DNA of 64,000 nucleotides from Leptolyngbya sp. PCC 6406. Lineage in GTDB: Bacteria > Cyanobacteriota > Cyanobacteriia > Phormidesmidales > Phormidesmidaceae. Of the stretch, positions 9,173-61,966 are shown in pieces. Under the pieces are notes generated by a model. The model was not told the origin of the DNA, searched no databases, and worked only from the letters and a program-made list of their open reading frames with translations. A program made the translations under genes and the position numbers. The stretch lies in the NCBI RefSeq assembly GCF_000332095.2, contig NZ_KI913949.1:4798769-4862768 (forward strand). Direction: 5' to 3'. Each line of letters starts with the position of its first letter. The first letter of the stretch is position 1.

Positions 9173-9490
9173 GTTAAGGTCAAAGTCAAAGGCACCGCCT
9201 CTCCGGATGACCCTGACCTGCACGACTACTGGCAACACCGTCAACAGCGGCATGGCAAGCGATACTGGAGTCGAGGCTCCACGTATTATCGACTGGCCCA
9301 AAGTCAGCAATGGCGGTGCCCTGTCTGTGGTGAAGGGCTCGTCAATGGCGAGGAAGTCCATGCTCATCACCGCTCTCCTGTCCAGGCGGGTGGTTTGAGT
9401 CAGGACGAGAACCTACAATTGCTCCATCAGGCCTGTCATCGGCAGGTACATGGTCAGGCCAAAACACCTGTTGGCTCACAGAGGGCTTGA
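9173..9490 (+). pseudogene. Group II intron protein, C-terminal HNH endonuclease fragment
   Basis: About 105 codons after the IS encode the En domain of the intron protein. It starts with a PVKVKVKG segment and then shows an HNH zinc site: CPVC, HAHHRSP, NLQLLHQACH. The stop codon (9488-9490) overlaps the first bases of domain V, as is usual for such introns. No start codon of its own is expected, because it is the tail of the protein whose head is at 7304. Confidence 0.85.
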
Positions 9491-9522
9491 GCCGGATGAG
9501 AGGAAACTATCAAGTCCGGTTC
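9489..9522 (+). ncRNA. Group II intron domain V (catalytic hairpin)
   Basis: A 34-nt hairpin beginning GAGCCGG and closing CCGGTTC, with a GAAA-type tetraloop in the middle. The AGC catalytic triad is at 9490-9492. Domain VI follows directly. Confidence 0.9.
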
Positions 9523-9565
9523 TTAGGGGGGAGAGGGGCAGCGATGTCTTTCTCTCCTACCCAAC

Positions 9566-54834: not shown

Positions 54835-55089
54835 CAGGCTTTCTCCAGATCGAGTGTCGCTATTGTATCCCGGTGGATGGGTGATGGGGTGTTGGAGTAG
54901 GGGGGTGTATAGCCTAACGGCATTCAAGAAAGGCGTTGGCGAAGCCACTCCCAGGGAGTTAGCCTGCCCGGAGGGCTTAGGGGTGGGGGAGTTTTGAATT
55001 TTGAATTTCCCGGTAGGGGCGCGGTTTCCGCGCCCAATGCAGGATGTCGCCGTAGGGGCGCGGTTTCCGTGCCAATGCAGGATGTCGCC

Positions 55090-55167
55090 GTAGGGGCGGG
55101 TTTAGCCGGAATTGGGTGGGTGATGATTCAGGAATGGGCTGACAAAACCCGCCCTGCCCCGTGCCGG
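55090..55167. repeat. REP-like palindrome, copy F
   Basis: GTAGGGGCGGGTTTAGCC on the left and CAAAACCCGCCCTGCCCC on the right, followed by GTGCCGG as in copy A. Confidence 0.8.
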
Positions 55168-55378
55168 ATAATCCAGGATCAAGGTCAACTCCGTACCCGT
55201 CCTAACCCGGTGTTGGGAACTCAGAATGGGAGGCTCAAAGCCCGCCCTTCTCGATATCGGGAAACCCCGAATTAGTAGCTCTTGCTGAGGAATCCCAAGA
55301 CAATCCCTCCAAACCCACTCTGCCCGGTGCTAAAATCAAAGTCGAAATGAGTTCGCTTAAGCCCATTTCAGATCATCA

Positions 55379-57690: not shown

Positions 57691-57790
57691 GGGGTGTGAA
57701 CAATAAATCTGTGTTACCTTATCTCCAGTGCAAACAATTGCACAATGACCTGAGATAAAAACCGTCCAGGGAATTAAGGAGGTGATGCCC

Positions 57791-57862
57791 ATGTCAGACA
57801 GTAGTAAATGCATGGGTCTCCAGGTTGAAGTGAGCCGGCTGCGTGCCGGGGCTGTTCACTAG
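57791..57862 (+). CDS. Candidate 23-residue small protein or leader peptide
   Basis: ATG with AAGGAGG exactly 8 nt upstream, the best ribosome site in this part of the window. The product begins MSDSSKCMGLQVEV and ends RAGAVH, with one Cys at position 7. An ATG two codons earlier is too close to the ribosome site. The peptide is soluble, not a membrane microprotein. Without homologues it may be a leader peptide or chance; the flanking hairpins and terminator favour a functional unit. Confidence 0.4.
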   Translation: MSDSSKCMGLQVEVSRLRAGAVH

Positions 57863-57959
57863 GAGCCAGTCTCAATCTCCCTCAGATTGACTGAGCCATT
57901 GAAGCTGGATTCTGGAGTTCCTTCCGGCAGTCTGGTTTCAACCTGATAGACCCGCTAGA

Positions 57960-58014
57960 CCGCCCCTATCCTGAGAAGGCATATCCTTCTTTGGGTAGGG
58001 GCGGATAGTTTTTT
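57960..58014 (+). terminator. Intrinsic terminator of the small structured locus
   Basis: CCGCCCCTATCC (57960-57971) pairs with GGGTAGGGGCGG (57993-58004), with an inner GAAGG/CCTTC stem, then TAGTTTTTTC. Confidence 0.85.
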
Positions 58015-58104: not shown

Positions 58105-58386
58105 ATGGCTACTCTTCTGACCCATGACACTATTCAGTCTAAGCTGAGCCCGCTGAAGGGATGGACCCTCAAGGGCAAGGCGATTCAAACGGTGAAGACC
58201 TTTGACGGATTCCCGAGTGCGATCGCATTTGTAAATAAGCTCGTAGATCCTGCTGAAGCTGCCGGACACCACCCCGACATCGCCATCTCCTACAACCAAG
58301 TCACCATCACCGTCACCTCCCACGACGCGGGGGGGCTCACGGAAAAGGATTTTGCCCTCGCCGCCGAAATCAACCAGATCGCCTAA
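58105..58386 (+). CDS. Pterin-4a-carbinolamine dehydratase
   Basis: A 93-residue DCoH/PhhB family protein that dehydrates 4a-hydroxytetrahydropterins. The catalytic His pair is His55-His56 in EAAGHHPDIA, followed by YNQVTITVTSHDAGGLTEKD, typical of the fold. The ATG at 58105 gives a family-length product; an in-frame start 23 codons earlier crosses the region after the terminator and is unlikely. In cyanobacteria, relatives have been linked to pterin metabolism and, in plants and carboxysome loci, to Rubisco assembly, but no such neighbours are present. Confidence 0.9.
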   Translation: MATLLTHDTIQSKLSPLKGWTLKGKAIQTVKTFDGFPSAIAFVNKLVDPAEAAGHHPDIAISYNQVTITVTSHDAGGLTEKDFALAAEINQIA

Positions 58387-58753
58387 ATACGGTGGCTGAA
58401 TTCCCCGGCACGGGGTAGGGCGGGTTTTGAGCCTTCCATTTGGGATTTCCCAGTAGACACGAGCTAAACCCGCCCCTACGGCAACATCCTGCATCGGGCG
58501 CGGAACCGCGCCCCTACCATCACCCCATCACTCCCCCAATCCCTCCCGTAACAATCATTACATTCAGAATGTTCCAGAAATGGGACTTTGATGTGTTCTA
58601 GACGACTTACATTCTCCTGGGTTCCCCTGCTACTATCCAATGCAGGATAAGTGGTGAGAGCAGCGTGAAACCCTCTTGGAGAAAGGATTACAGGGTTTAC
58701 GGCTGCTTAACATACACTTAATCCCACCTTAAACGTGTGAGGAAAGTGAGTAT
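58387..58753. other. Intergenic region upstream of the porins
   Basis: Holds a reverse-oriented REP-like palindrome (58406-58480) and an AT-richer stretch (about 58540-58750) that must carry the porin promoter and a long leader. No gene was seen. Confidence 0.6.
58406..58480. repeat. REP-like palindrome, copy G (inverted)
   Basis: GGCACGGGGTAGGGCGGGTT on the left and AAACCCGCCCCTAC on the right, with the interior like that of copy C. Confidence 0.8.
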
Positions 58754-60244
58754 ATGTCTGTACAACTTTGGAAGGCGGCTCTCATGAGCCCTGCGCTTCT
58801 AGGCATTGCGTTAACCAGCAGCGCGATCGCAGTTGAAGCTCCCAGCATTGAAATCGAAGCTCCCAGCGTCGAAACCCTAGACACGATTGCAGTCGAAGAG
58901 CCCGTACAACTGGCTCAAGTCGCCAGTGTTAACGACCTCAGCGACGTTCTGCCCTCCGACTGGGCCTACACCGCGCTACAAAACCTGGTAGAAACCTACG
59001 GTTGTATCGAGGGCTATCCCAACCGTACCTTCCGGGGTAACCAAGCCCTGACCCGCTACGAGTTCGCTGCCGGTTTGAACGCCTGTCTGGACGTGATTGC
59101 TGACCTCATCACCGGAGGTGGAACAGACGGTAGCACCCTCGCCACCATCCAGCGCCTTCAGCAAGAGTTCCAAGCTGAACTCGCCACCCTGCGCGGTCGT
59201 GTGGATGCCCTAGAAGCAGAAACCGCTCAGCTTCGCGCTCAGCAGTTCTCCACCACCACCAAGCTACGGGGTCAAGTGGACGCCAACTTGGTTGTCCCCT
59301 TCGGTAATATTGCGGCTACTCCAGCTAACCCTGGCCCTGATAGCTTTACAACCTTCAACACCCGAGTTCGTTTGAACTTCGACACCAGCTTCACCGGACG
59401 AGATCGCCTCCGCACCCGTCTACAGGCTCGTGATGGTAACGCTATCCCGACGGCTGGCGGTCTTGCCAATGGCGGTAGTGATAGTGGTCCTGGCAACTTG
59501 AATGTAGCCCTAGATGACTTCTTTTACCGTTTTCCTATTGGTAGCCGCGTGACAGCGACTCTGGCTGCTAACTCCGTTTCAAAGGACAGCTTTGTAACGA
59601 GCACAATCGTTCCCTTTGATGGCCCCAGCGTCGCTGACCCCGGTGGTCCTGCGCTCTACGACTTTGATATGGGTGGCGATGGCTTTGGTGGTGGTCTGAG
59701 CTTCCAAATTACGGACAGCTTGGTCTTTGACACTGGTTATTCTGCTGCTCGTGGTGGTTCTAACAATCCCAACCAGGGTGGTATCTTCGGTGCAAATCGT
59801 CAGAGCTACATTGCTCAACTGAGCTTCTTGCCAGAAGGCTTCTTCAATGCTGCATTGGTGTACATGCACGGCAGTAATAACAACAACAACGCATCAGCTT
59901 TCACGAATACCTATGGTGCCCTCGCTAGCCTAGATTTTGGCCGCTTTATCCTAGCGGGCTACTTTGCCCACCATGACGAATCGGGAACACCTCGGAGCAC
60001 CGATAGCTGGCAGATTGGGGCCGCTTTCCCCGACCTGTTTCTAGAAGGCTCTGAACTGGGTGTGTACTACGCTAGCCTGCCTAGCTACAATTCCCGCCCC
60101 TACATGGTTGAGGGCTACTACGCTATTCCCGTGAGCCGTAACCTCACCCTGACTCCTGCTCTGATCTACGGCAACCTCGACCGTAACTCCGCCGTTGATG
60201 TCAACAACTTCTACGGTGCTATCCGGGCGACCTTCACCTTCTAG
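58754..60244 (+). CDS. SLH-domain outer membrane porin (first of tandem pair)
   Basis: A 496-residue porin of the cyanobacterial SLH/OprB-like (iron uptake porin, SomA/B-like) family. It has a signal peptide at 1-28 ending SSAIAVEA and an SLH domain at about 65-125 (LPSDWAYTALQNLVETYGC, then NRTFRGNQALTRYEFAAGL) for binding peptidoglycan-linked polymer. A short coiled coil (LQQEFQAELATLRGRVDALE) leads to a beta-barrel ending in the usual Phe (ATFTF). Such porins dominate the cyanobacterial outer membrane and pass inorganic ions. Ribosome site GAGGAAAGTGAG precedes the ATG. Confidence 0.93.
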   Translation: MSVQLWKAALMSPALLGIALTSSAIAVEAPSIEIEAPSVETLDTIAVEEPVQLAQVASVNDLSDVLPSDWAYTALQNLVETYGCIEGYPNRTFRGNQALTRYEFAAGLNACLDVIADLITGGGTDGSTLATIQRLQQEFQAELATLRGRVDALEAETAQLRAQQFSTTTKLRGQVDANLVVPFGNIAATPANPGPDSFTTFNTRVRLNFDTSFTGRDRLRTRLQARDGNAIPTAGGLANGGSDSGPGNLNVALDDFFYRFPIGSRVTATLAANSVSKDSFVTSTIVPFDGPSVADPGGPALYDFDMGGDGFGGGLSFQITDSLVFDTGYSAARGGSNNPNQGGIFGANRQSYIAQLSFLPEGFFNAALVYMHGSNNNNNASAFTNTYGALASLDFGRFILAGYFAHHDESGTPRSTDSWQIGAAFPDLFLEGSELGVYYASLPSYNSRPYMVEGYYAIPVSRNLTLTPALIYGNLDRNSAVDVNNFYGAIRATFTF

Positions 60245-60490: not shown

Positions 60491-61966
60491 ATGACGACTC
60501 AATTTTGGAAAGCAGCTTTCATGAGCCCTGCCCTCCTGGGTATGGTCATGGCAAGTGCCAGTGTGGCGGCTGAAGCCCCCACCGTTGAATCCTTAGACAT
60601 TTCCGCTTCTGAGCCTGTTCAACTAGCTCAAGTTGCCAGCGTTAGCGACCTCAGCGATGTGCTGCCCTCCGATTGGGCCTACACCGCGCTACAAAACCTG
60701 GTAGAAACCTACGGTTGTATCGAAGGCTATCCCAACCGCACCTTCCGGGGTAACCAAGCCCTGACCCGCTACGAGTTCGCCGCCGGTCTGAACGCCTGTT
60801 TGGACGTTATTGCTGGTCTCATCACCGGAGACGGTCTAGACGGTAGCACCCTCGCCACCATCCAGCGCCTTCAGCAAGAGTTCCAAGCAGAACTCGCCAC
60901 CCTGCGCGGTCGTGTGGATGCCCTAGAAGCAGAAACCGCTCAGCTTCGCGCTCAGCAGTTCTCTACCACCACCAAGCTCCGTGGTCAAGTGGACTCTAAT
61001 TTGGTTGTCCCCTTCGGTAACACCGCTGCTGGCCCTGATAGCTTTACCACCTTCAACAGCCGTGCACGTCTGAACTTCGACACCAGCTTCACCGGTAGCG
61101 ATCTCTTACGGACTCGCCTCCAAGCAGGGGATGGGGCAGCTCCTCTGGCTACTGCTGGTGGCCTTGCCAATGCTGGTGGAGATGGCACCTTTAACGTTGC
61201 TCTCGATGACTTTTACTATCGCTTCCCCATTGGTAGCCGAGTTACTGCCACGCTGGCAGCCAACTCCGTGCAAACTGATGATTTCGTCACCAGCACCATC
61301 GTTCCCTGGGATGGTCCTGCGGTAGCTGACCCTAGCGGCCCTCTACTTTATGACTTTGGCATGGGTGGCGGTGGCTTCGCCGCTGGCCTAAGCTTCCAGA
61401 TTACCAACAGCTTGGTCTTCGATGCAGGCTACTCTGCTGGCCGTACAGCTACTCCTCTTGGTGGATCTAACAATCCCAACGCTGGTGGTATCTTTGGTTC
61501 TCCTAGCCAAAGCTACATTGCCCAGCTAAGTTTCCTCCCTGAGGGCTTCTTTAGCGGTGCTCTGGTATATGCGAACGGGACTACAGCCCCTACTGCCCCT
61601 GGAGTACTTCCTGTAGTTGCTGGAGCCTCTACTGACACCTATGGTGCCCTGGCTAGCCTTGACTTTGGTCGATTCATCCTGGCGGGCTCCTTTGCCCACC
61701 ATACCTCTGGTCCTGCTAGCACCGATAGCTGGCAGATTGGGGCTGCTTTCCCTGACCTGTTCCTGGAAGGCTCTCAACTGGGTGTGTACTACGCTAGCCT
61801 ACCTAGCTACACCTCCCGCCCCTATATGGTTGAAGGTTACTACTCCATCCCCGTCAACCAGTTCTTGACCCTAACCCCAGCTCTGATCTACGGCAACCTA
61901 GATCGTAACTCGGCAACAGATGTCAACAACTTCTACGGTGCTATCCGGGCAACCTTCAGCTTCTAG
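60491..61966 (+). CDS. SLH-domain outer membrane porin (second of tandem pair)
   Basis: A 491-residue paralogue of the preceding gene. The same layout holds: signal peptide (ASASVAAEA end), SLH domain, coiled coil, beta-barrel ending ATFSF. The DNA for the SLH and coiled-coil region is nearly identical between the copies, while the barrel loops differ in length and sequence (for example GTTAPTAPGVLPVVAGAST here). It has its own leader of 246 nt and a GTGAGGGGAGAA ribosome site. A strong terminator ends the pair. Confidence 0.93.
   Translation: MTTQFWKAAFMSPALLGMVMASASVAAEAPTVESLDISASEPVQLAQVASVSDLSDVLPSDWAYTALQNLVETYGCIEGYPNRTFRGNQALTRYEFAAGLNACLDVIAGLITGDGLDGSTLATIQRLQQEFQAELATLRGRVDALEAETAQLRAQQFSTTTKLRGQVDSNLVVPFGNTAAGPDSFTTFNSRARLNFDTSFTGSDLLRTRLQAGDGAAPLATAGGLANAGGDGTFNVALDDFYYRFPIGSRVTATLAANSVQTDDFVTSTIVPWDGPAVADPSGPLLYDFGMGGGGFAAGLSFQITNSLVFDAGYSAGRTATPLGGSNNPNAGGIFGSPSQSYIAQLSFLPEGFFSGALVYANGTTAPTAPGVLPVVAGASTDTYGALASLDFGRFILAGSFAHHTSGPASTDSWQIGAAFPDLFLEGSQLGVYYASLPSYTSRPYMVEGYYSIPVNQFLTLTPALIYGNLDRNSATDVNNFYGAIRATFSF

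Follow-up and report, generated by a model that had tools for sequence, protein, structure and literature searches.

The hok-type mRNAs are marked by long-range pairing between their 5′ and 3′ parts; the full-length RNA is silent, and trimming of the 3′ end activates it. Among the cyanobacteria, Yfr6 of Prochlorococcus is a structured RNA of ~240 nt with a central 33-codon ORF, for which a Northern signal was reported only in MED4 and SS120 (PMC1242208). Closer to the subject of this study is ncl0160, which was named first in Synechocystis PCC 6803 (Mitschke et al. 2011, as cited in PMC4734099). Brenes-Alvarez et al. 2016 counted 83 homologs of it in the genomes they studied, with the homolog set in Nostoc PCC 7120 resting on start sites from dRNA-seq (PMC4734099). 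In their description ncl0160 is likely translated into a peptide of 23-25 aa, with TAA, TAG and TGA serving as stop codons in 47, 34 and 2 cases; the main text offers no mechanism, and the supplement shows a predicted structure, which may or may not include a helix between the ORF and the 3′UTR (PMC4734099). In the literature searched, we found no mention of ncl0160 beyond Brenes-Alvarez et al. 2016.

The locus analyzed here lies in a 64,000-nucleotide stretch of Leptolyngbya sp. PCC 6406 DNA (the window) and is almost certainly a homolog of Ncl0160, the two being equated by their described features rather than by a published sequence. Like Ncl0160 as it is described in that paper, it belongs to a family with a wide cyanobacterial spread, an ORF for 23-25 aa preceded by a ribosome site, mostly ATG starts, and similar stop proportions. 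Of 130 distinct ORFs, 128 have 23-24 codons, the ORF with its ribosome site is widespread among non-marine cyanobacteria (BLAST with a 101-nt 5′-module consensus matched 222 of 291 class genomes), and the stop codons TAA, TAG and TGA occur 67, 61 and 2 times in the 130 ORFs, in the reported order of TAA > TAG >> TGA. From the agreement in length, ribosome site, breadth, and stop usage, we take the locus to belong to the same family. The original prediction held that the locus matches no RNA or protein family. As far as databases go this is correct: none of 4227 Rfam models reached its gathering score over 57691-58014, nor did anything appear up to E = 5, and the 23-aa peptide had no match in Pfam or NCBIfam, a weak test for so short a peptide, nor in solved structures. 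The literature, on the other hand, does hold a family that fits.

Architecture and distribution of the element

As read from the sequence, a compact gene fills positions 57691-58014, with a predicted extended -10 promoter, a 5′ hairpin, a ribosome site, a 23-codon ORF, and a strong terminator (Table 1). The parts named in the original prediction were all found in place, including AAGGAGG (57776-57782), which lies 8 nt ahead of the ATG (57791), the 23-residue peptide with its single Cys, and the long terminator, in which T6 (58009-58014) comes directly after the stem CTA..CCGCCCCTATCC / GGGTAGGGGCGG.TAG (57955-58008). The exception concerns a proposed nested 5′ hairpin, of which the inner part stands. 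The outer arm (TTATCTC) lies inside the predicted promoter and relatives do not preserve it, so that probably only the inner hairpin is present in the RNA. Where the inner hairpin sits, relatives show a hairpin of varying sequence. The exact ribosome-site 11-mer AAGGAGGTGAT has eight copies in the genome, and only this one precedes a start codon; two of the others are the antisense of 16S ends.

Table 1. Features of the element, in window positions.
Feature	Position	Strand	Basis
Predicted extended -10 promoter element TGTTACCTT	57712..57720	+	motif recurrence upstream of homologs
Predicted transcription start	near 57727	+	predicted along with the -10 element
5′ hairpin AGTGCA-aacaat-TGCAC, near predicted 5′ end	57727..57743	+	sequence, fold
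Ribosome-binding site AAGGAGGTGAT, 11-nt complement of 16S rRNA 3′ tail	57776..57786	+	GGAGGTGATGCC invariant in alignment A1
Start-codon hairpin, GCCCATG (57787-57793) with CATGGGT (57811-57817)	57787..57818	+	RNAalifold, folding
23-codon ORF MSDSSKCMGLQVEVSRLRAGAVH, one Cys, stop TAG	57791..57862	+	frame conservation, stop-free alignment
Long-range helix, ORF strand (GGGTC, CAGGTTGAA, GCCGGCTG, GCCGGGG)	57814..57851	+	own-vs-swapped duplex energies, compensatory pair types
Variable apical hairpin region after the stop codon	57863..57917	+	local folding; sequence conservation poor
Long-range helix, 3′UTR strand (TTCCTTCCGGCAGTCTGGTTTCAACCTGATAGACCC)	57918..57953	+	duplex energies, compensatory pair types
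Intrinsic terminator, stem and T6	57955..58014	+	compensatory changes; stem-T-run in relatives

The element had been suspected of being too organized for spacer DNA, and this is borne out. A 330-nt stretch folds far better than its shuffles (z -4.6, and -6.0 for the 3′ part), and the presence of homologs in most genomes of the class places the organization far beyond chance. BLAST of the interval gave matches in 51 of 59 relatives, and a covariance model, with strict filters applied, gave matches in 85 of the 244 genomes of the phylum. Among the named hosts are Nostoc, Microcoleus, Pseudanabaena, Fischerella, Moorena, Thermosynechococcus, and Acaryochloris. One family, whose genomes measure 1.6-3 Mb and which probably represents the marine picocyanobacteria, was without a match to the covariance model. 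A lack of conservation of both the peptide and the stems, which was to count against the original prediction, was clearly not seen. Carriage by phages was also considered and dropped, as the nine viral-contig matches to a short pattern all represent one unrelated phage locus.

Comparison of the homologs indicates that the element is a stand-alone transcription unit, whose own promoter element and terminator are kept while the neighbours change. Of 153 upstream regions of homologs, 134 carry the motif TGnTAnnnT at a distance of 30-85 nt from the ribosome site, against 14.7 expected in shuffles, and a terminator stem with a T-run was found in 168 of 177 loci, with many compensatory changes in the stem among 47 homologs. 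The predicted transcript has a median length of 294 nt. Similar short G+C-rich stretches at 54994-55275 and 58410-58500, with MQDVAVGAGLA in one frame, flank prlC and the element and are apparently an interspersed repeat, part of which the terminator stem (TAGGGGCGG) resembles.

Neighbouring genes

The gene that begins ~90 nt further on, at the ATG at 58105, is a true pterin dehydratase (PCD; Pterin_4a, PF01329, 3e-29), as had been claimed. It was also proposed that the small ORF is a leader peptide acting on this gene, which in its explicit form would be an attenuator, with terminator formation depending on where the ribosome stands on the ORF. The order of ORF, terminator, and PCD gene in this genome speaks for such a device, and the same order recurs in 63 of the 126 loci that have enough flank. 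However, a leader-peptide attenuator calls for a conserved regulated gene downstream in cis, and the remaining loci have no PCD there. Of 54 callable loci among these, 17 have their next sizeable ORF on the opposite strand, by strand calls based on longest ORFs rather than curated genes. Where PCD is present, the distance to its reading frame is very variable and reaches 1.4 kb, and the gene stands behind a terminator that shares no stem with the ORF helix described below; no antiterminator was found. Upstream, psbD was found in 42 of 135 loci, and the other neighbours differ in kind and strand. Since the neighbours vary and PCD follows in only 63 of 126 loci, the element is no general leader of the PCD gene. 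We therefore reject cis control of pterin dehydratase as a general role and regard the attenuator as very improbable, whereas a special cis effect on PCD in this one genome is possible.

Further observations concern the surroundings. Far upstream in the window, at 9487-9565 on the + strand, Rfam gave a match to a group II intron domain (58.7 bits). Right after the pterin dehydratase gene, two outer-membrane porin-like ORFs (496 and 491 aa) that closely resemble each other lie in tandem on the + strand (58754-60244 and 60491-61966). In many draft contigs (such as L070, L073, L077, and L104) the element lies 250-600 nt from the contig end. An rRNA neighbourhood was considered and dropped, as no rRNA was found near the element in 18 named loci. 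In many longer contigs the gene upstream is psbD, which is often duplicated, and this duplication probably breaks the assemblies.

Selection on the reading frame and on an ORF-3′UTR helix

The evolution of the ORF indicates that its translation is under selection. From the ATG to an anchor near the ORF end, the length is 49, 52, or 55 nt, and thus in one phase, in 155 of 155 distinct homologs, with indels in 3-nt steps only; six divergent loci without the anchor were left out of this count. In contrast, the distances from the anchor to the next conserved block in the 3′UTR fall into all three phases (42/63/49). All 116 aligned ORFs are free of in-frame stops, where column shuffles would lead one to expect 6.6. 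At the same time, the RNA itself is under strong constraint at the nucleotide level, as seen from a pN/pS of 0.81 together with synonymous sites that are as frozen as the others (AGT AGT AAA GGT). For many codons a single synonymous form has become fixed, e.g., AGT, AGT, GGT, CTG, and GCC.

The freezing of synonymous sites is in part attributable to a long-range helix, in which, judging from the homologs, the latter half of the ORF is paired to 3′UTR sequence just ahead of the terminator. GGGUC-NN-CAGGUUGAA and the ORF end GCCGGCUG..GCCGGGG pair with UYCCGGCAGUC-x-GGUUUCAACCUGAAGACCC, and the segments so joined include GGGUC/GACCC and CAGGUUGAA/UUCAACCUG. Duplexes between strands of the same locus were stronger than those between swapped strands by -5.95 kcal/mol and were better in 85% of swaps (p = 1.9e-9 over 31 clusters), where relatedness is a partial confound that clustering reduces rather than removes. 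An RNAalifold consensus of 47 sequences has compensatory changes in 15 of 36 pairs. At the helix position in codon 13, the pair types A-U, C-G, G-C, and U-A all occur: the second base of the codon is A, C, or G, and the 3′ strand changes with it, which argues that pairing outranks the residue. Two other pairings were tried and set aside. For the 5′ UUUAGG with CCUGAA, own pairs were no better than swapped ones (p = 0.24), and a pairing of the 3′ strand with the segment after the stop codon is visible here and in close relatives but gave p = 0.1-0.5 across clusters.

Selection for coding and RNA structure are thus both seen in the homologs, so that frame-preserving evolution of the ORF and covariation of the RNA together support the suggestion of a microprotein gene or possible dual-function RNA. 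If the element were a plain micro-mRNA, its function would lie in the 23-residue peptide, and the structure of the RNA would set only the expression or stability of that peptide. Such a reading would account for the strict conservation of frame (155 of 155), for the very strong ribosome site, and for the C-terminal (L)CAGAVL and the SSK motif, whose frame is preserved even where distant lineages carry indels. It fits less well with the frozen synonymous sites and with residues that vary freely where the RNA permits (H/L/R at codon 10, E/A/G/D at codon 13, C/R/W at codon 18). Moreover, in a few lineages (L068, named Thermosynechococcus, and L198 and L201) an earlier stop ends the ORF at ~17 codons, and in such ORFs, as in L068, the C-terminal motif is lost. 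We consider the peptide-only reading rather doubtful.

A small RNA that base-pairs in trans, with the ORF as a by-product, is the opposite extreme, and we hold it to be unlikely. Its seed would be the conserved 3′ strand or the loop GAYAGUAGUAAA, both of which are conserved beyond what coding needs, and a free-standing unit with variable neighbours would suit it. However, pairing with the ORF already accounts for why the 3′ strand is conserved, and strict conservation of frame would not be expected of a by-product.

Predicted start-codon competition and relation to known systems

The sequence GGGTC (57814-57818) is common to the long-range helix and to the start-codon hairpin, whose GCCC/GGGU pairing is predicted by RNAalifold in 47 of 47 sequences with no covariation. 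As both uses of GGGUC are invariant, covariation cannot prove that the two compete, but folding predicts that helix formation gates the start codon through this shared segment. Averaged over 127 sequences, the AUG has a predicted equilibrium probability of being unpaired of 0.573 in the full RNA, 0.344 with the 3′ strand of another species, 0.096 with the 3′ strand shuffled, and 0.089 in RNA truncated without it, and the start-codon hairpin is predicted to dominate once the 3′ strand is absent. For the RNA of this locus the predicted mean is about 0.24 at full length vs <0.001 when truncated. Even at full length its A and U are mostly paired (unpaired 0.07 and 0.10), so that the predicted gating is weaker here.

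On these grounds, we propose that a transcript of ~290 nt, running from its predicted own promoter to its own terminator, would serve both as a micro-mRNA for the 23-residue peptide and as a conserved structured RNA. The ORF-3′UTR helix would take GGGUC from the hairpin that buries the start codon, and intact full-length RNA could therefore start translation whereas nascent or 3′-shortened RNA could not. A ribosome reading the ORF would then open the helix and free the 3′ strand. The act of translation would count for no less than the peptide itself, and the RNA would probably act in trans rather than on the adjoining gene. A translation-coupled regulator in trans, in which translation of the ORF and the ORF-3′UTR helix oppose each other, is in our view the most likely role, with a probability of about one half. 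The comparative evidence supports its foundations, namely the independent unit, the selection on frame, and the helix, while the consequences of ribosome passage and the action in trans are what we infer from them. Against it speak a few distant lineages with an ORF shortened to ~17 codons or with a rearranged 3′ half. In some distant genomes (L200 and L202-L204) the rearrangement affects the terminator and the 3′ strand, and in L200 a complement of the ORF segment (AAACCTGAGATCC) lies before, not after, the CCAGCAG block. A more specific form may be put forward tentatively: pairing of the 3′UTR inside the micro-ORF would open the start codon, only complete transcripts would be translated, and ribosomes would reset the switch, making the RNA a phylum-wide sensor of translation or of RNA 3′-end integrity.

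An RNA-peptide gene kept in most of the cyanobacteria sampled likely has a basic role, and it is one without an Rfam model. What this analysis adds to the main text on Ncl0160 is the selection on frame, the ORF-3′UTR helix, the predicted GGGUC competition, and the variability of the neighbours; the helices and the competition are defined well enough by the comparative evidence to be testable with a few point mutants. The element resembles Yfr6 as a structured RNA with a small ORF inside, but the ORF differs in length and the lineage of Yfr6 is probably without a match to our covariance model. With the hok-type mRNAs it shares a small ORF whose translation hinges, here by prediction, on the 3′ end pairing back. 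In contrast to hok, whose full-length RNA is silent, the full-length RNA here is predicted to be the open form, and the peptide is not of the hydrophobic toxin type.
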